Shown in pieces: positions 168 to 6,757 of a stretch of DNA of 27,126 nucleotides (its first letter is position 1; every line of letters starts with the position of its first letter). Location of the stretch: IMG/VR virus record IMGVR_UViG_3300013285_000060, positions 1 to 27,126 of that record; one strand, 5' to 3'. The notes beneath the pieces were generated by a model. The model ran no database searches and was not told the DNA's origin. It saw only the letters and a program-made list of their open reading frames with translations. Made by a program: the position numbers and the translations under genes. The DNA comes from a virus.

Positions 168-425
168 TCATACTTCAACAACGGCGCAAATGTCCGCTTC
201 TTGGATGATCTGGTAGTCCTGGCCATCAACTTTGTGCGTAGGCCAGTTTAGGTAGTCGCCGTTGCCGTATTTTATAAAATCACCAACTTGCGCTTCGTAA
301 ACTTCTGAGCCAATGGCGACCACTGTGCCTTCGTTGAACGGCTCTTTGTTGTTGACGTAAATAATATCCGACAGATTCCGCACCGTGGGTCGGACTAGAA
401 CACGGTCATTCAGCGGTTTGAACAT
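168..425 (-). CDS. GroES-like co-chaperonin (Cpn10)
   Basis: An 85-residue protein with the Cpn10 plan: N-terminal FKPLNDRVLVRP matches the conserved first strand of GroES (PLxDRVxV), a central EGTVVAIG matches RGEVLAVG, then VGDFIKYG matches VGDIVxFxxG, and the C-terminal IIQEADICAVVEV matches the final strand (xxESDILAIVE). GroES is about 95-97 residues; this one is shorter both in the mobile loop (around residues 15-32) and in the roof hairpin. A hydrophobic triad (IIY, about residues 21-23) is kept where GroES uses IVL to bind GroEL. Known phage Cpn10 homologues such as T4 gp31 help fold the major capsid protein inside host GroEL, and a similar role here is inference. Its start overlaps the upstream gene by 20 bp and has only a weak GAAGAA ribosome site, suggesting coupled translation. 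Confidence 0.85.
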   Translation of the reverse strand: MFKPLNDRVLVRPTVRNLSDIIYVNNKEPFNEGTVVAIGSEVYEAQVGDFIKYGNGDYLNWPTHKVDGQDYQIIQEADICAVVEV

Positions 426-2279: not shown

Positions 2280-2476
2280 AGTTCCATCTCCGTGATTTCC
2301 CGCATATATTTCCTGCATCTGGCGTCAAAGCCTTTGCCATAGTGCGGTTCAAGGTAAGCAATCTGTTTGGTCAGCCAGACGTTAGCCTTTGGTTTGCCAA
2401 GCAGGTCCACGGTTGCAAAGTAAGACGGGACAAGCATCCTAGCCTCGGCTTTTTCAAGTTGACAGCGGTCACTCAT
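2258..2476 (-). CDS. Unknown 72-residue protein between helicase and nuclease genes
   Basis: The ATG lies inside the last codons of the helicase gene (8 bp overlap), and the stop lies 22 bp inside the nuclease gene, so it is embedded in the operon. The protein is charged and helical, with a WLTKQIAYLEPHYGKGFDARCRKYMREI stretch split by two Cys residues but no recognisable motif. A helper or regulator of the adjacent helicase or nuclease is possible but unsupported. The function is unknown. Confidence 0.6.
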   Translation of the reverse strand: MSDRCQLEKAEARMLVPSYFATVDLLGKPKANVWLTKQIAYLEPHYGKGFDARCRKYMREITEMELCVEQQG

Positions 2477-3428
2477 AGCTGGTCAAAAAATCGCCTGCGT
2501 TGCCCGTAAATTGCCCAGAATCTTTATGCAGCCAGAGTCCAATAAACGGTTCCCCGTCTCCGCTGCCCTCAAAATGGCGTTGCTTTTGACAAATCAACAG
2601 TGAATCAGGCTCCGCTGACAGTTTGCCAAACAATCCATTTTCCCGAAAATCGCGCTCTTTTGGCTTGTTGCGCCAGACCGTAAAGATGTTGTCCACCTGG
2701 TCGCTGATGCTTCCGCTGCCCTTTAAGTCATGTTTATTAGGTATTGCGTCCTCGTTAGACAGCTTGCGAACGTGGTGAACTAAGTGAATGTGAATCTGCA
2801 AGTCCTTGGCTATCGCAAACAGTTCGCCCACCAGCCGCTTCTGGCCATTCATATCATCTTCGTCGCCAACCACTTTCATCAGCGAGTCAATAAAAATGTG
2901 CTTTATGCCCAATTCTTTCGCGCAATAGCGGGTCATGCCAATGACAATCTCCGAGCTGGTCACACCCATTTGGTCGTATATCCACAGCCGGTTATCGCTC
3001 CAGGCGCCAAAACTGTCAAACATTTCGTCCAGTGCCTCAAATCCTTCGTTGTTTTGATATTCCGGTGTGTAAGGGTTTGTCCTTATAAACATCCTATTCA
3101 TCAGTCGGATAGTCTGCACCGGCTTCATTTCAAAAGACGCTATGCAAGTTCTCTCGCCCTGGGCCATCAGGCTCATTGCGATCTGGGCGGTTAGCTGAGA
3201 CTTTCCGTGGCCGTTCTGCCCTGCCCAGACTGTCATTTCTCCAGGTCGGAAGTAGAACGATTCGCGTGTTTTTAGCCAAGGCATGAAAAGTTTGCGCTCC
3301 GTAGCCATCTGGCGCATACGCTCTTTAATGGCCGGTAGGTAGTGGGACGCAGGCTTGACTTTCTGCTTGTTGTCAGTTTCGCGTAGGTATTGCGAAAAGT
3401 CGATTGTGTCGGGGATTAGTTCAGCCAT
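2469..3428 (-). CDS. Replicative DNA helicase, DnaB/T7 gp4 C-terminal (SF4) type
   Basis: A 319-residue RecA-fold ATPase without the DnaB N-terminal collar domain. Walker A is GQNGHGKS (residues 70-77) after a FRPGEMTVWAG strand, the catalytic Glu region is ASFEM (97-101), Walker B is HIFIDSLMK (Asp181), motif H3 is HLVHHVRK (215-222), and motif H4 with the arginine-finger region is DLKGSGSISDQVDNIFTVWRNK split at 234-255. This is the 5'-3' hexameric replicative helicase set. The missing N-terminal domain resembles many phage helicases that work without a primase fusion. The ribosome site GTGGAG is upstream, and the start overlaps the previous gene by 8 bp. Its place just after the YdaU-like initiator fits the initiator-then-helicase order of lambdoid replication modules. 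Confidence 0.92.
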   Translation of the reverse strand: MAELIPDTIDFSQYLRETDNKQKVKPASHYLPAIKERMRQMATERKLFMPWLKTRESFYFRPGEMTVWAGQNGHGKSQLTAQIAMSLMAQGERTCIASFEMKPVQTIRLMNRMFIRTNPYTPEYQNNEGFEALDEMFDSFGAWSDNRLWIYDQMGVTSSEIVIGMTRYCAKELGIKHIFIDSLMKVVGDEDDMNGQKRLVGELFAIAKDLQIHIHLVHHVRKLSNEDAIPNKHDLKGSGSISDQVDNIFTVWRNKPKERDFRENGLFGKLSAEPDSLLICQKQRHFEGSGDGEPFIGLWLHKDSGQFTGNAGDFLTSYE

Positions 3429-3753: not shown

Positions 3754-4394
3754 ATCACCCCCGCCATTACGTTTGATTGACCAGAGGGCGCATTTTTGCC
3801 TGTCACCCAATCAGCATTAAACGATTGCCAGTTGCGAACTACCGTTTCTTTCAACGCATCTTCCAATGACCATCCTGCTTTTTTTGCTTGTTCAGCAATG
3901 CCTTTGATGACCAATGGCGTAACTGATGCTTTCTTTGCTTTACGGTGCTTGGTGAATTCCTGCCAAACCTCTTGTGAAACGCCGTCAGGCGGTGCAACGC
4001 TAGTTGCTGTATTTATTGGTTTTGGTTTATGGTTTATGGTTGCTATTGGGATAGCATTGGGGAGGGCAATGGGGTGGCTATTGGGTGGGGATTGCCAGCG
4101 TTTAGCCGCCCCACGTTTACCAGCGGCAATCATCTCATGGTAGTTGGCAATTATCTTGTCAGCTTTGGGGTTTATAAACCCTGCGTCTGTGCTAACAAAA
4201 AATTCGTTCAAGATGCTCAAGACTTCTTGTTCGTTGTCCCTCATGCCAATCTGTCTTGCAATTTCTCGTTGCTTTATGGGAACTTCGTGAAGGTAGTAAT
4301 GGTCAAGGAGCCGCCGATAGGCTAAGTCCTCAATCATGTTTAAATGGTGAGTGTGACTCTTGTAGTCCCCAATATGAAAGGGAAAGTAGTGCAT
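3750..4394 (-). CDS. YdaU-like replication initiator (DUF1376)
   Basis: A 214-residue protein from the ATG at 4394, which has AAAGG upstream; a further in-frame ATG at 4436 lacks one and precedes the family start. Residues 1-85 (MHYFPFHIGDYKSHTHHLNM, then LAYRRLLDHYYLHE) are a clear DUF1376 winged-helix domain. A Pro/Ala/Ile linker (about 101-135) follows, then a C-terminal helical domain (WQEFTKHRKAKKA...WSLEDALKETVVRNWQSF) like those that bind the helicase. This is the general plan of lambda O-type initiators. The linker DNA holds a 12-bp tandem repeat array (4042-4088) that is a candidate origin. A repeat cluster lies just upstream at 4406-4453. Confidence 0.85.
   Translation of the reverse strand: MHYFPFHIGDYKSHTHHLNMIEDLAYRRLLDHYYLHEVPIKQREIARQIGMRDNEQEVLSILNEFFVSTDAGFINPKADKIIANYHEMIAAGKRGAAKRWQSPPNSHPIALPNAIPIATINHKPKPINTATSVAPPDGVSQEVWQEFTKHRKAKKASVTPLVIKGIAEQAKKAGWSLEDALKETVVRNWQSFNADWVTGKNAPSGQSNVMAGVI
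4003..4090. other. Candidate replication origin: four 12-bp iterons plus AT-rich DNA inside the initiator gene
   Basis: On the plus strand four near-tandem units begin at 4042 (GCTATTGGGATA), 4054 (GCATTGGGGAGG), 4066 (GCAATGGGGTG) and 4077 (GCTATTGGGTGG). The spacing is 12, 12 and 11 bp. They lie next to an AT-rich run at about 4003-4041 holding two GGTTTAT units. In the protein they encode a tetrapeptide repeat (PPNS, HPIA, LPNA, IPIA) in the interdomain linker. Lambda O has the same arrangement, with its iterons inside the O gene linker beside AT-rich DNA. Origin function is inferred. Confidence 0.5.
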
Positions 4395-4405
4395 GGCGCT
4401 AACCT

Positions 4406-4453
4406 TTATCACGGTTGTTATCACTAGAAAGAACATCGGCAGGACGGTGATAA
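4406..4453 (-). promoter_or_regulatory. TTATCAC/GTGATAA repeat cluster before the initiator
   Basis: The gap between the Cro-like and initiator genes has TTATCAC at 4406-4412 and 4418-4424 (period 12 bp), and the inverted GTGATAA at 4447-4453. In the leftward mRNA the first element can pair with either of the other two. The second alternative abuts the AAAGG ribosome site of the initiator (GTGATAAAGG). Either a protein-binding cluster or alternative hairpins controlling translation would fit. Confidence 0.4.
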
Positions 4454-4469
4454 GTCGTCTTTTCCCCCG

Positions 4470-4676
4470 CTAAAGGTAGCCGTGCCCAAAATCTAACGCT
4501 TCTTTTTCTGCTTTCGCAATAGCTTTTGCAAACTTTAACCGCATCACTTCCTCCCAGCCCTTTGGCACCGCGCCACGTTTGCGCCAGTTGGAGATGACGT
4601 TCTGTTTCAGGTCGAGGATGTAGGCCAAGCGACCAACGCCACCAGCCGATGCGATTGCGATTTCAAGGATTTTCAT
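4470..4676 (-). CDS. Cro-like / YdaS-family helix-turn-helix regulator
   Basis: A 68-residue protein from the ATG at 4676. An upstream in-frame ATG at 4784 would translate the whole control region and is rejected. Residues 10-40 (AGGVGRLAYILDLKQNVISN followed by WRKRGAVPKGW) form the YdaS/Cro-type helix-turn-helix, with the recognition helix around QNVISNWRKRG. The C-terminus is Lys/Ala-rich. YdaS-type proteins act as Cro in many lambdoid prophages and use short palindromic operators. It is the first gene of the leftward operon, 14 bp from one of the two TCACAAATGTGA palindromes, so it is the natural candidate to bind both and balance the two early promoters. There is no Shine-Dalgarno sequence before the ATG, and the -10 placement suggests a leaderless message. 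Confidence 0.8.
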   Translation of the reverse strand: MKILEIAIASAGGVGRLAYILDLKQNVISNWRKRGAVPKGWEEVMRLKFAKAIAKAEKEALDFGHGYL

Positions 4677-4683
4677 GCGGCGC

Positions 4684-4692
4684 ACTATATCA
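4684..4692 (-). promoter_or_regulatory. Leftward early promoter, extended -10
   Basis: The minus strand reads TGATATAGT, the same nonamer as at 1272-1280. Its TGA is shared with the right end of the operator at 4690-4701, so operator occupancy should block RNA polymerase. Seven bases separate the hexamer from the Cro-like ATG. The -35 region is poor. Confidence 0.5.
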
Positions 4693-4701
4693 CAAATGTG
4701 A
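4690..4701. promoter_or_regulatory. Operator palindrome, left copy
   Basis: TCACAAATGTGA, with 5-bp arms TCACA/TGTGA around a 2-bp centre. It is identical to the copy at 4757-4768. It overlaps the extended -10 of the leftward promoter. It is the likely binding site of the Cro-like protein; that is inference. Confidence 0.65.
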
Positions 4702-4746
4702 AGCCGAACATTAAGGAAAGTATTTAAAAAAAAAGTTAAAAAGACC

Positions 4747-4776
4747 TTGAGCAATGTCACAAATGTGATGTAAGAT
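4747..4776 (+). promoter_or_regulatory. Rightward early promoter
   Basis: A -35 of TTGAGC (4747-4752) and a -10 of TAAGAT (4771-4776) are separated by 18 bp, each matching 4 of 6 consensus bases. The spacer contains the second operator palindrome. A start seven bases past the -10 is at 4783, which is the A of an ATG CCC TGA triplet run. The 43-residue gene starts 38 bp later with a strong ribosome site. Confidence 0.55.
4757..4768. promoter_or_regulatory. Operator palindrome, right copy
   Basis: TCACAAATGTGA, exactly the sequence at 4690-4701, 67 bp away start to start. It lies inside the -35/-10 spacer of the rightward promoter, two bases from the -10, a standard repressor-operator position. 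The flanks extend the symmetry weakly (ATG...GAT). Confidence 0.65.
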
Positions 4777-4785
4777 AGCGCCATG

Positions 4786-4810
4786 CCCTGAACTTCTCGG
4801 GGTCTTTTTA
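4786..4810 (+). terminator. 5'-terminal hairpin with U-run: attenuator-like or stabilising leader
   Basis: CCCTGA (4786-4791) pairs with TCGGGG (4797-4802), giving 6 bp with one G-T and a 5-base loop, followed by TCTTTTTA. It begins only a few bases after the predicted transcription start and ends against the AGGAG of the 43-residue gene. The shape is that of an intrinsic terminator, but its place suggests an attenuator or a 5'-end stabiliser. Confidence 0.4.
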
Positions 4811-4820
4811 GGAGTCAGAA

Positions 4821-4952
4821 ATGACAGATTTTCAAGTTATCGCTTCTGTGATTCGTTACCTACAAGCTGAGGCAAGCGCAGTCTCAGCAAACGTGCATTT
4901 GCCAAGTGGCAAAAACGTAGTTGTCTACGTTGATGGCAGAGTCCAATACTAA
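4821..4952 (+). CDS. First rightward early gene, 43-residue microprotein
   Basis: The ORF has 43 codons with TTAGGAGTC before the ATG, an ideal ribosome site. The protein is MTDFQVIASVIRYLQAEASA, then a helix-to-strand turn VSANVHLPSGKNVVVYVDGR. It is mildly acidic and has no transmembrane segment. It predicts as one helix followed by a beta-hairpin. As the first gene of the rightward operon it could be an early regulator or host-takeover peptide, but nothing in the sequence proves this. It fills what would otherwise be a gap between the promoter and the next gene. Confidence 0.6.
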   Translation: MTDFQVIASVIRYLQAEASAVSANVHLPSGKNVVVYVDGRVQY

Positions 4953-4958
4953 ACCCAC

Positions 4959-4972
4959 GGGGCTACGGCCCC
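4959..4972 (+). other. UNCG-type RNA hairpin before the second rightward gene
   Basis: GGGGC-TACG-GCCCC forms a perfect 5-bp stem capped by a C(UACG)G tetraloop, one of the most stable small RNA loops. No U-run follows, so it is not an intrinsic terminator. It ends three bases before the AGGAG of the gene at 4987 and probably sets message stability or ribosome access. Confidence 0.55.
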
Positions 4973-4986
4973 ATCAGGAGAACATC

Positions 4987-5178
4987 ATGGAAGAAGGAAT
5001 AACAATCATGGCAGAGGCCGATACGCGCATCAACGTGGATGCTTGGAACTTTTACGGCGAACCGTTCAAGGTTTGGCTTAACATTGCCGTGCCAAGAGCA
5101 TCTTGCAGCGCAATGTTAACCCCTGACCAAGCAAGGCAGATTGCAGCAGCCCTAATCATGTTTGCGGAGGCCAAATGA
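4987..5178 (+). CDS. Small unknown early protein (63 residues)
   Basis: The ATG at 4987 follows CAGGAG; earlier in-frame TTG/ATG codons lack a ribosome site and overlap the previous gene. The protein has a strand-rich centre (VDAWNFYGEPFKVWLNIAVP) and a C-terminal LTPDQARQIAAALIMFAEA helix. This LTPxQAxxLAAAL ending recurs in many small, uncharacterised phage proteins. The stop TGA overlaps the next ATG as ATGA. The function is unknown. Confidence 0.6.
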   Translation: MEEGITIMAEADTRINVDAWNFYGEPFKVWLNIAVPRASCSAMLTPDQARQIAAALIMFAEAK

Positions 5179-5255
5179 AACTTGCAGACATTACCCTCGC
5201 AGTCGCTATTGGCCTTGGCCTAGCTTACGCTCTTGTTTATGGGTGGCCGTTATGA
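5175..5255 (+). CDS. 26-residue single-span membrane microprotein
   Basis: MKLADITLAVAIGLGLAYAL followed by VYGWPL: one hydrophobic helix (about residues 5-24) with almost no extramembrane part. It is joined to both neighbours by ATGA overlaps, and GGAGG lies 8 bases upstream of its ATG. The coupling on both sides argues that it is translated. Phage early microproteins of this type sometimes act on host membrane targets, but no specific role is supported. Confidence 0.5.
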   Translation: MKLADITLAVAIGLGLAYALVYGWPL

Positions 5256-5512
5256 AGTGCCTAGCCCCAGTCTGCCCGTCAGGAATGGCCGAATTCAACA
5301 TCTTTATTGAAGGTGTCTGGCTTGTATGCCATTTTGAGTACGAACCCGCAGAACGCGCTTCACCCTGCGAACCGGCCATTGACCAGGTGTTGATTCTTTG
5401 CTCTGCTTACGTTGGTGATGTAGACATTGCCCACTTGCTGCTGGAAAGCATTGCAATGGAGATTAACCACTTGGCTCAATTAGAACTGGAGAACAAAGAA
5501 TGCACATATTGA
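5252..5512 (+). CDS. Unknown early protein (86 residues)
   Basis: The start at 5252 was chosen because it overlaps the stop of the membrane microprotein as ATGA; the upstream in-frame extension is only the other frame of that gene. The protein opens with MKCLAPVCPSGMAEF (a C-x4-C pair), continues with a strand-rich ...NIFIEGVWLVCHFEYEP segment and ends with an acidic helix (DIAHLLLESIAMEINHL). The Cys pattern (four Cys in the first 60 residues) might bind a metal. No family can be named with confidence. Confidence 0.6.
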   Translation: MKCLAPVCPSGMAEFNIFIEGVWLVCHFEYEPAERASPCEPAIDQVLILCSAYVGDVDIAHLLLESIAMEINHLAQLELENKECTY

Positions 5513-5589
5513 AACTTTACCTTATGTACCGACGGTTTGGCTGGACAGTCTGGAATTCACTCAAACAAATCTTGAAAGCAATTAAATGA
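5500..5589 (+). CDS. 29-residue basic amphipathic microprotein
   Basis: MHILKLYLMYRRFGWTVWNS followed by LKQILKAIK: net positive, with hydrophobic and basic faces alternating as in an amphipathic helix. GGAGAACAAAG precedes the ATG. It overlaps the previous gene by 13 bp and the ERF gene by ATGA. Short basic peptides with a YRR(F/L)G motif are common in small phage early genes but remain unassigned. Confidence 0.5.
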   Translation: MHILKLYLMYRRFGWTVWNSLKQILKAIK

Positions 5590-6131
5590 AAAACATAGCC
5601 ACCGCTTTTATAAAGGCAAAACGTGCTTTTGGCCCAGTGCTAAAAGTATCCAGCAACCCGCATTTCAAGAGCAAGTTTGCCCCGCTGGATGTGTGCCTTG
5701 AAGCTGTTGATGCAGCTTGCCTAGACAACGGGATTGCAATCTATCAAGAGACATTCTTAGACGACACAGGCATTACCGTGGAAACGGTGTTCCTGCATGA
5801 ATCAGGCGAATCCCTGCGGTGCGGTAAGTTGCACGTTCCGGCAGCCAAACAAGACCCACAGGGCTACGGCTCGGCATTAACCTATGCGCGGCGCTACAGC
5901 CTGCTTACAGCCTGCGGTATCGCTCCAGAAGATGATGATGGCAACGCCGCCAGCAAGCCAGTCAAGTCCACCGAGGCCACGATCAAAGCATTGTTTGCCG
6001 ATATTAATGACGCATCAACTAGAGAGGAACTCCAAGACGCTTACTACAACGCCATGAAAACGGTAGGCAATGACCAGGCCGCCAAAGACGCAATCATCAA
6101 AGCTAAAGACGCAAAGAAAGCAACACTATGA
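5586..6131 (+). CDS. ERF-family single-strand annealing protein
   Basis: A 181-residue protein. The core motifs of the ERF superfamily (P22 Erf) are present: NPHFKSKFAPLDVCLEAVDA (residues 23-42), then GSALTYARRYSLLTACGIAP (about 97-116) followed by DDDGNAA. ERF proteins anneal complementary single strands and promote homologous recombination and genome circularisation or concatemer formation. The C-terminal quarter (from about residue 120) is a Lys/Asp/Ala-rich helical tail that may contact partner proteins. The next gene encodes a lambda-exo-type nuclease, the usual exonuclease/annealing-protein pair. There is no strong ribosome site, and translation is probably coupled through the ATGA overlap. 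Confidence 0.9.
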   Translation: MKNIATAFIKAKRAFGPVLKVSSNPHFKSKFAPLDVCLEAVDAACLDNGIAIYQETFLDDTGITVETVFLHESGESLRCGKLHVPAAKQDPQGYGSALTYARRYSLLTACGIAPEDDDGNAASKPVKSTEATIKALFADINDASTREELQDAYYNAMKTVGNDQAAKDAIIKAKDAKKATL

Positions 6132-6757
6132 AACTCACTATACGGGCCTCGGGCCTTTTCGCAATCATGACCGATGGCAAAGGCAAAGACGAACTGTCTG
6201 TCGGCGCAAAGACCTATGTCACAAAAGCAGCAAAAGAGTTTATCTACGGCTACGATGACAAAGTCGCTTATAAATACATGGACAAAGGCATTCGCTGTGA
6301 GGATGAATCCATAGCATTGTTTAACAGCGTGATGTTAACCAGCTACATAAAAAACACTGAGCGCCGCGAGAACGAATGGATTACTGGAGAGGCTGACATT
6401 GTTGCAACGCACAAAATCATTGACATTAAAACGTCCTGGTGCGTGACCACTTTCCCCGTGTTGTCTGAACTGGGCGAGGACAAGGGCTATGAGTGGCAAT
6501 TACGGGCTTATATGATGTTGTGGGACAAACCCTATGCAGAGATAGCCTATTGCCTTGTAAACACGCCAGATGACTTGATCGGATGTGAAGCACCAAGCCT
6601 GCACCTGGTTGACCATATCCCACGGGATTTGCGCGTTACCGTTGTCCGTTATGAAAGGGATGTTGAACTAGAAAACAAAATCAAAATCAAAGTCGCTGCG
6701 GCTCGGAAATACTACACCCAAGTTATCCACCAAATTACCAACCAACACACTTACTAA
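6128..6757 (+). CDS. YqaJ / lambda exonuclease-like PD-(D/E)XK nuclease
   Basis: A 209-residue protein. Its catalytic residues can be read: KGIRCEDESIALF (Glu58/Glu60), GEADIV (Asp90), IIDIKTSW (Asp99-x-Lys101), and a YEWQLRAYMML helix (Gln124, Tyr128). These are the YqaJ/alkaline-exonuclease signatures (E..., D...DxK, QLxxYM). It would resect 5' strands to feed the ERF annealing protein. The ATG overlaps the ERF stop as ATGA, so the two are probably made in fixed ratio. The length agrees with phage members of the family. There is no sign of truncation. Confidence 0.88.
   Translation: MKLTIRASGLFAIMTDGKGKDELSVGAKTYVTKAAKEFIYGYDDKVAYKYMDKGIRCEDESIALFNSVMLTSYIKNTERRENEWITGEADIVATHKIIDIKTSWCVTTFPVLSELGEDKGYEWQLRAYMMLWDKPYAEIAYCLVNTPDDLIGCEAPSLHLVDHIPRDLRVTVVRYERDVELENKIKIKVAAARKYYTQVIHQITNQHTY

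Follow-up and report, generated by a model that had tools for sequence, protein, structure and literature searches.

A probable two-operator, cro-only early control region with helically stepped operator spacing in an apparently lytic phage

In the OR switch of phage lambda, Cro acts on operators that overlap divergent promoters, and the arrangement comprises three operators together with the repressor CI. The Cro-operator arrangement of lambda is also described in the account of the YdaS protein of prophage CP-933P (PMC8630535), in which the footprint of YdaS covers both divergent promoters in two stretches and the gene for the CI analogue PaaR2 is leaderless. Binding to a single operator is reported for the Cro protein of phiKO2 (PMC4997575). 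In the pLS20 system, two Rco operators lie 75 bp apart, the spacer carries A/T tracts, and a 5 bp insertion is described as destroying regulation (PMC4207663). At the RNA level, put RNAs are summarized as elements of ~70 nt with two stem-loops (PMC9378689). Among the papers listed in literature searches on cro-only control in virulent phages and on leader hairpins in freshwater phages, none describes the present arrangement, as judged by titles and abstract openings.

Here, we examine a region of a 27,126-nt stretch of viral DNA (the whole stretch analyzed, hereafter the window) that carries two identical operator-like palindromes between divergently oriented genes. The architecture looks like that of a cI/cro immunity region minus cI, and we consider it likely that an apparently lytic phage controls its early genes from here, where two operators and a Cro-type repressor acting alone would form a negative-feedback brake. 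The features of the region are as follows.

4421..4485, minus strand: int-alpA-like RNA (RF02996), 28.2 bits, E 9e-4, below the gathering score of 35.8
4470..4676, minus strand: cro-like repressor gene, 68 aa (Pfam, PHROGs, profile, model, and Foldseek matches)
4684..4689, minus strand: leftward promoter, with TATAGT as its extended -10 (TGATATAGT) and no recognizable -35
4690..4701, no strand assigned: left operator TCACAAATGTGA, read in the window sequence and kept in 70/70 clade regions
4702..4756, no strand assigned: AT-rich inter-operator spacer, its length in relatives kept to helical-turn steps
4747..4752, plus strand: weak -35-like hexamer TTGAGC, 18 nt away from the -10 of the rightward promoter
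4757..4768, no strand assigned: right operator TCACAAATGTGA, between -35-like TTGAGC and -10 TAAGAT, kept in relatives
4771..4776, plus strand: -10-like TAAGAT of the rightward promoter, read in the window sequence
4783..4814, plus strand: putative 5' leader of the rightward early mRNA (covariation in 33 leaders; exact 30-mer in IMG/VR)
4821..4952, plus strand: 43-aa gene of no assigned function that opens the rightward early operon, after AGGAG at 4810-4814
5586-6131, rightward operon: ERF annealing protein, after small ORFs past 4952
6128-6757, rightward operon: exonuclease, after the ERF gene

The operator is an imperfect palindrome (TCACA-AA-TGTGA) whose two exact copies, at 4690-4701 and 4757-4768, are oriented alike on the plus strand with a start-to-start distance of 67 bp; no other copy occurs in the 27,126 nt. 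The initial annotation, made from the letters, had noted a palindrome present exactly twice, 67 bp apart and each time next to a -10 element, and the window sequence bears this out. In 100 dinucleotide-preserving shuffles of the window, TCACAAATGTGA occurred at a mean of 0.01 copies and never twice (0/100). When up to 3 mismatches were allowed, 26 operator-like matches were found compared with 31.8 expected; since this looser pattern is no commoner than chance, the information is limited to the near-exact pair. The ordinary frequency of the 3-mismatch motif would suit palindromes that arose by chance and have no regulatory role. However, no shuffle held two exact copies and both sites adjoin -10 elements in all 70 clade regions described below, so that conservation already contradicts a chance origin, to which we give almost no credence.

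On the left, read on the minus strand, the operator is followed by TATAGT (4684-4689), GCGCCGC (4677-4683), and ATG (4676-4674); it abuts the -10 of the cro-like gene, and its arm supplies the TGA of the extended -10. On the right, the operator is followed by TG, TAAGAT (4771-4776), AGCGCC (4777-4782), and ATG (4783-4785). Two modules with the same order of parts had been proposed from this likeness, and operator and -10 are indeed present on both sides, but the remaining parts of the proposal fail. Among 33 relatives, GCGCC occurs on the left only in L003 and L004 and on the right only in L003; many relatives have TCACCC on the right side. The right ATG, taken as a gene start, borders a hairpin and meets a stop codon after one further codon (ATG-CCC-TGA), and the real gene starts from 4821 behind AGGAG. 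Because GCGCC is unconserved and the right ATG opens no gene, mirror duplication of the whole module (operator, -10, GCGCC, and ATG) was rejected. A leaderless two-codon ORF at 4783 was rejected as well, since CATGCCGCAACAT variants lack the early stop and the ATG itself is missing in L094 and L002.

IMG/VR scans returned 33 loci by protein, 79 by alignment, and 19 by operator pair, and 140 matches were merged into 75 different upstream regions, 70 of which belong to the clade of the window; the other 5, CI-type relatives, were kept apart. The operator-pair scan asked for spacers of 50–80 bp, which limits the spacing range (62–92) of those 19 stretches but not their phase. Every one of the 70 clade regions has two operator sites, the left of which starts 23–25 bp before the cro ATG; L151 and L159, whose right site has 3 mismatches, are counted among the 70 at a spacing of 89. 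A search of related phages for the palindrome had been suggested as a check, with a lack of conservation as the outcome that would speak against it; the pair proved to be conserved throughout the clade. The idea of a Cro-type gene with one operator per divergent promoter, rather than three, is likewise upheld by the conserved pair and by the three sites of the CI-bearing distant relatives.

The gene to the left is predicted to encode an all-helical Cro protein of the Xfaso 1/YdaS type. In Pfam, the 68-aa protein matched PF15943 (YdaS) with an E-value of 1e-4 and 22.5 bits, under the curated cut-off of 30, and P22 Cro with an E-value of 0.02, while in PHROGs it matched the DNA-binding family phrog_8008 (E 9e-6). 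A profile built from 21 relatives found the Cro of Xylella prophage Xfaso 1 (PDB 3bd1) at an E-value of 1.2e-10, and hybrid XPH1 was matched by it as well; the helix-turn-helix sequence of the Cro family is recognized by this profile, whereas the single-sequence Pfam match stays under the cut-off. The AlphaFold model is all-helical with five helices (mean pLDDT 92), in agreement with the all-helical fold of ~65 aa of the Cro family, and its best Foldseek match is again 3bd1 (TM 0.68, rmsd 1.6, E 0.027), with 5w8y among the best and N15 Cro slightly lower, every E-value being above 0.001. Most Cro proteins of the clade have 59–60 aa and no separate tetramer domain. A tblastn search with the Cro-like protein against 50,697 phage records gave no match, and no relative was found in a protein scan of genome contigs.

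The mRNA of the cro-like gene probably starts at the ATG itself, i.e., it would be leaderless, because in the window this ATG stands 7 nt past TATAGT and no ribosome site precedes it. Throughout the clade (70/70 regions), cro starts with ATG, 5–8 nt separate the end of the -10 from this codon, and no Shine-Dalgarno-like 4-mer is found before it. The cro promoter has an extended -10 (TGn) in 57 of the 70 regions, and a -35 better than 3 of 6 is absent in all of them. Upstream of this -35-less promoter, many 67–79 bp spacers (L026, L027, L042, and L115) carry a TAGGGA..TCCCTA-like inverted repeat, which is possibly the site of an activator or host factor.

The int-alpA-like RNA of the window lies at and after the end of the cro-like gene, ahead of primosomal (DUF1376) and DnaB-like genes. 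At the cro end of L002, L014, L030, L003, L018, L020, and L035, this RNA exceeds the gathering score, with 36.4 to 45.1 bits (L014 2612-2681 and L003 5190-5259, for example); its core pattern was found in 43/66 clade regions, and in L032 it lies ~600 bp past cro. Because the int-alpA RNA ends in a U-run, both early transcripts would carry a terminator-like RNA near their start. The match of MW202520.1 to the window consists of the int-alpA RNA region only (2423-2489, minus strand, 38.5 bits); no such operator (with at most 1 mismatch) and no leader occur in the 4982 bases examined. MW202520.1 is the one relative with a named source, a spring, and we surmise a freshwater origin of these phages from this source and from the sole leader-bearing bacterial contig, a Comamonadaceae metagenome-assembled genome (MAG). 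A GroES-like co-chaperonin gene, read from the translation, is present in the window at 168-425 (minus strand), and MW202520.1 has an annotated GroES at the corresponding end of its map. In L007, a tRNA gene (5385-5456, plus strand) follows soon after the cro-like gene.

The rightward promoter (TTGAGC, 18 nt, TAAGAT) is weak by consensus, and a strict sigma-70 scan of 4300-5300 found no promoter. Nevertheless, an equivalent -10 stands 6 nt ahead of the leader ATG in 57/68 clade regions examined. The genes that follow promoter-proximal leaders begin with 49 distinct first pentapeptides. In 11 of the 66 regions with enough flank (L013, L017, L016, L073, L061, L102, L114, L107, L006, L010, and L094), an extra copy of the operator-promoter-leader unit lies deeper in the right operon, by 1.0–3.1 kb, as expected of a Cro regulon; the right operon of the window has no such deeper copy.

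The leader consists of a hairpin (4785-4803), a T-run (4805-4809; CTTTTT after the stem), and the Shine-Dalgarno sequence AGGAG (4810-4814). Its exact 30-mer was found in 49 IMG/VR stretches, all of which have CATG; 6 nt separate the best -10-like hexamer from the ATG in 47 of them, compared with 5 and 7 nt in the others, so that the leader begins where transcription is expected to start. The TCACA operator is absent in 23/49 stretches, which show 13 different upstream sequences, and the leader is thus common to phages with other operators. The hairpin, U-run, and Shine-Dalgarno sequence also occur in L053, L055, L060, L063, L074, L096, and others. In an alignment of 33 different leaders (32 of 43 different leaders plus the window), pairing is seen in 92.6% of the cells of the 7-bp stem and two-sided changes occur in 5/7 stem pairs, compared with at most 57% pairing in slid controls. 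Folded alone, the window leader is mildly more stable than its shuffles (z -1.6). A GC-rich stem followed by a T-run, the pattern of an intrinsic terminator, is found at 4785-4803, with 1.3 such sites expected in that kilobase. In Rfam, no family reached the gathering score among the 26 sources scanned; a search of 50,697 phage records gave no match, and one of plasmids gave one 20-base chance match only. The scan of bacterial contigs found a single contig, that of the Comamonadaceae MAG, which is a weak hint of Comamonadaceae as the host.

A related unit lies between cistrons (20 sequences), in the order UUCG/UACG hairpin, linker, small hairpin, U-run, and Shine-Dalgarno sequence; these class B intercistronic hairpins are 98% paired with almost no covariation, and the unit looks like a processing or stabilizing element. 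In L011, L023, L014, L041, and L017, it comprises an UNCG-type hairpin, an ATCAAT linker, a small hairpin, TCTTTTT, and AGGAG. The window holds a partial version (4959-4978, plus strand) with the first hairpin only.

It is possible that the hairpin and U-run of the leader act after initiation, either as an attenuator that resembles a terminator or in antitermination, as HK022 put RNA does, with the int-alpA RNA acting likewise on the left. Such control would be compatible with our preferred explanation, and the position of stem and T-run right at the start, the close int-alpA RNA on the left transcript, and the recurrence of the 30-mer in 49 stretches with CATG and a -10-like hexamer 5–7 nt upstream, 23 of them with other promoter and operator sequences, are all consistent with it. 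Even so, we hold it to be unlikely: a single 7-bp hairpin is set against the ~70 nt and two stem-loops given for put (PMC9378689). Moreover, a role as 5'-end stabilizer and translation unit fits better because the Shine-Dalgarno sequence follows at once after the U-run and the hairpin-U-run-Shine-Dalgarno unit also occurs between cistrons. This latter role is most likely for the leader, which, if confirmed, would be a new RNA family that recurs in phages with unrelated operators.

The early description of the locus as a Cro switch is not supported, as the window and 15 further clade records gave no match to a second repressor or an integrase: PF00589 (integrase), PF00717 (Peptidase_S24), and PF01381 (HTH_3) each gave 0/16. 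Fourteen of the 16 records are 31–41 kb long, and family searches could overlook an unusual repressor; the window covers a fragment of 27 kb and the records may be incomplete, so that CI or an integrase could lie on missing DNA. On these searches, a negative-feedback brake is suggested rather than a switch, because neither a second repressor nor an integrase was found. The 5 distant relatives present another picture, with PF00589 in 4, PF00717 in 2, and PF01381 in 5. A CI-like gene diverges from cro in L031, L032, L160, and L161, while L157, with HTH_3 matches in its record, has too little flank at the locus for such a reading. With the operator matrix of the clade, three operator-like sites were found in 5/5 distant relatives, at about -60, -47, and -24 (-71, -47, and -24 in L031), the middle sites of L032, L157, L160, and L161 being weak (3.8–6.3 bits). 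No third site was found in the clade spacers, where the best score is 7.9 compared with at least 12.3 for the operators.

A true bistable switch could still be assembled if a partner repressor, encoded elsewhere in the phage or by a co-resident prophage, shared both operators. Such a partner would suit the likeness of the layout to cI/cro regions, the CI-like gene of distant relatives, and the fragmentary nature of the window. Yet HTH_3, S24, and integrase matches are absent from all 16 clade records, 14 of them of 31–41 kb, the rightward early operon occupies the position of cI, and the spacers show no third site (7.9 versus at least 12.3), so that we regard a two-repressor switch as very improbable. 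For the cro-only brake that we prefer, the simplest history is that cI was lost in the clade, the direction of this change being our inference.

Within the clade, the inter-operator distance changes one helical turn at a time: values of 56 (1), 57 (3), 67 (12), 68 (10), 78 (3), 79 (1), 87 (10), 88 (18), 89 (11), and 99 bp (1) make up the 70 spacings, with nothing in between, and the best period is 10.4 bp (R 0.92). For the 25 spacers less than 75% alike, R is 0.91, a value attained in 0/5000 uniform draws, and the periodicity of the five class centers was attained in 5/5000 simulations. The spacing classes require 22 changes when they are mapped onto a tree of 73 cro genes, a count that can be inflated if promoter regions recombine. 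The control distance, measured at 52 loci between the stop codon of cro and the gene that follows, lacked this period (R 0.33; 22 distinct values). T-tracts in the spacers have a power excess at 10.5–11 bp (0/300 shuffles) and also at 13–14; curved DNA from phased T-tracts was rejected since an excess that is also present at 13–14 is not specific to 10.5 bp.

These steps may reflect cooperative repression through a short loop, in which Cro on both operators, or Cro and polymerase, would touch across the spacer as in pLS20 Rco; the operators would have to keep their helical phase because such contacts span the spacer. This mechanism is compatible with a cro-only brake, and it is consistent with the confinement of all 70 spacings to 56–57, 67–68, 78–79, 87–89, and 99 bp, with the period of 10.4 bp that persists in the less-alike spacers (0/5000) and class centers (5/5000), and with the aperiodic neighboring control distance. 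The pLS20 precedent, with its 75 bp spacer with A/T tracts and the reported loss of regulation upon a 5 bp insertion (PMC4207663), points in the same direction. However, the relatives are not independent, and ten-base duplications of T-rich units could yield turn-sized steps without any selection for phase; L002 and L001 may differ by one such duplication. Most Cro proteins of the clade comprise only 59–60 aa without a separate tetramer domain, T-tract periodicity is unspecific, and the phase could serve the two polymerases instead. We therefore put the short loop forward tentatively, as a rather doubtful addition to the brake. In any case, turn-sized spacing steps provide a ready set of natural loop-length variants.

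Taken together, we propose that a leaderless mRNA would yield a small Cro-type repressor, which would bind one operator at each divergent early promoter. The left promoter would read cro and the replication genes, while the right promoter would read the recombination operon (ERF protein and exonuclease). As Cro builds up, it would cover both promoters and lower early transcription, and this brake would not be a two-state switch because it has no CI partner. The rightward mRNA would have its 5' end at the ATG of 4783 or directly beside it and would open with the conserved hairpin, U-run, and Shine-Dalgarno sequence, and this leader would stabilize the message and aid translation. As a note of warning, both operators need not be bound by a Cro protein, since the Cro of phiKO2 is reported to bind one operator (PMC4997575). 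A bolder combination, which we think improbable as a whole, is that a lytic lineage released its Cro, of ~60 residues, from cI, that this Cro uses a very short, phase-locked two-operator loop, and that an undescribed 5'-terminal RNA element (hairpin, U-run, and Shine-Dalgarno sequence) exerts its effect after initiation and moves between phages whose repressors differ. Because the natural series from three-site cI/cro regions to two-site cro-only regions holds many sequenced variants, the solo role of Cro in lytic growth becomes testable.

Compared with the OR switch of lambda, the locus shares Cro-type operators that overlap divergent promoters, but it has two operators instead of three and no CI was found. 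The Cro of Xfaso 1 (3bd1) and the all-helical Cro proteins of P22 and N15 are alike in profile match and predicted five-helix fold; here, in contrast, there is no adjacent cI, there are two operators only, and the operator sequence is TCACANNTGTGA. The int-alpA RNA (RF02996) is found at the cro end in relatives above the gathering score, with the copy of the window below it. As in HK022 put, an RNA structure lies just past an early promoter, yet it is one covarying 7-bp hairpin joined to a Shine-Dalgarno sequence instead of ~70 nt with two stem-loops (PMC9378689). CP-933P differs in having the CI analogue PaaR2 and a bistable region, whose 97 bp carry four repeats and three operators, while a YdaS-type regulator, divergent promoters, and a leaderless regulator gene, paaR2 there and probably the cro-like gene here, are common to both (PMC8630535). 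Finally, Rco of pLS20 is described as a proven tetramer that is also an activator, whereas the protein here has 59–68 aa and a role of phase is inferred from relatives; the two systems nevertheless resemble each other in having two operators, ~75 bp apart in pLS20, beside divergent promoters with an AT-rich spacer, and phase, which matters in pLS20 (PMC4207663), may matter here too.
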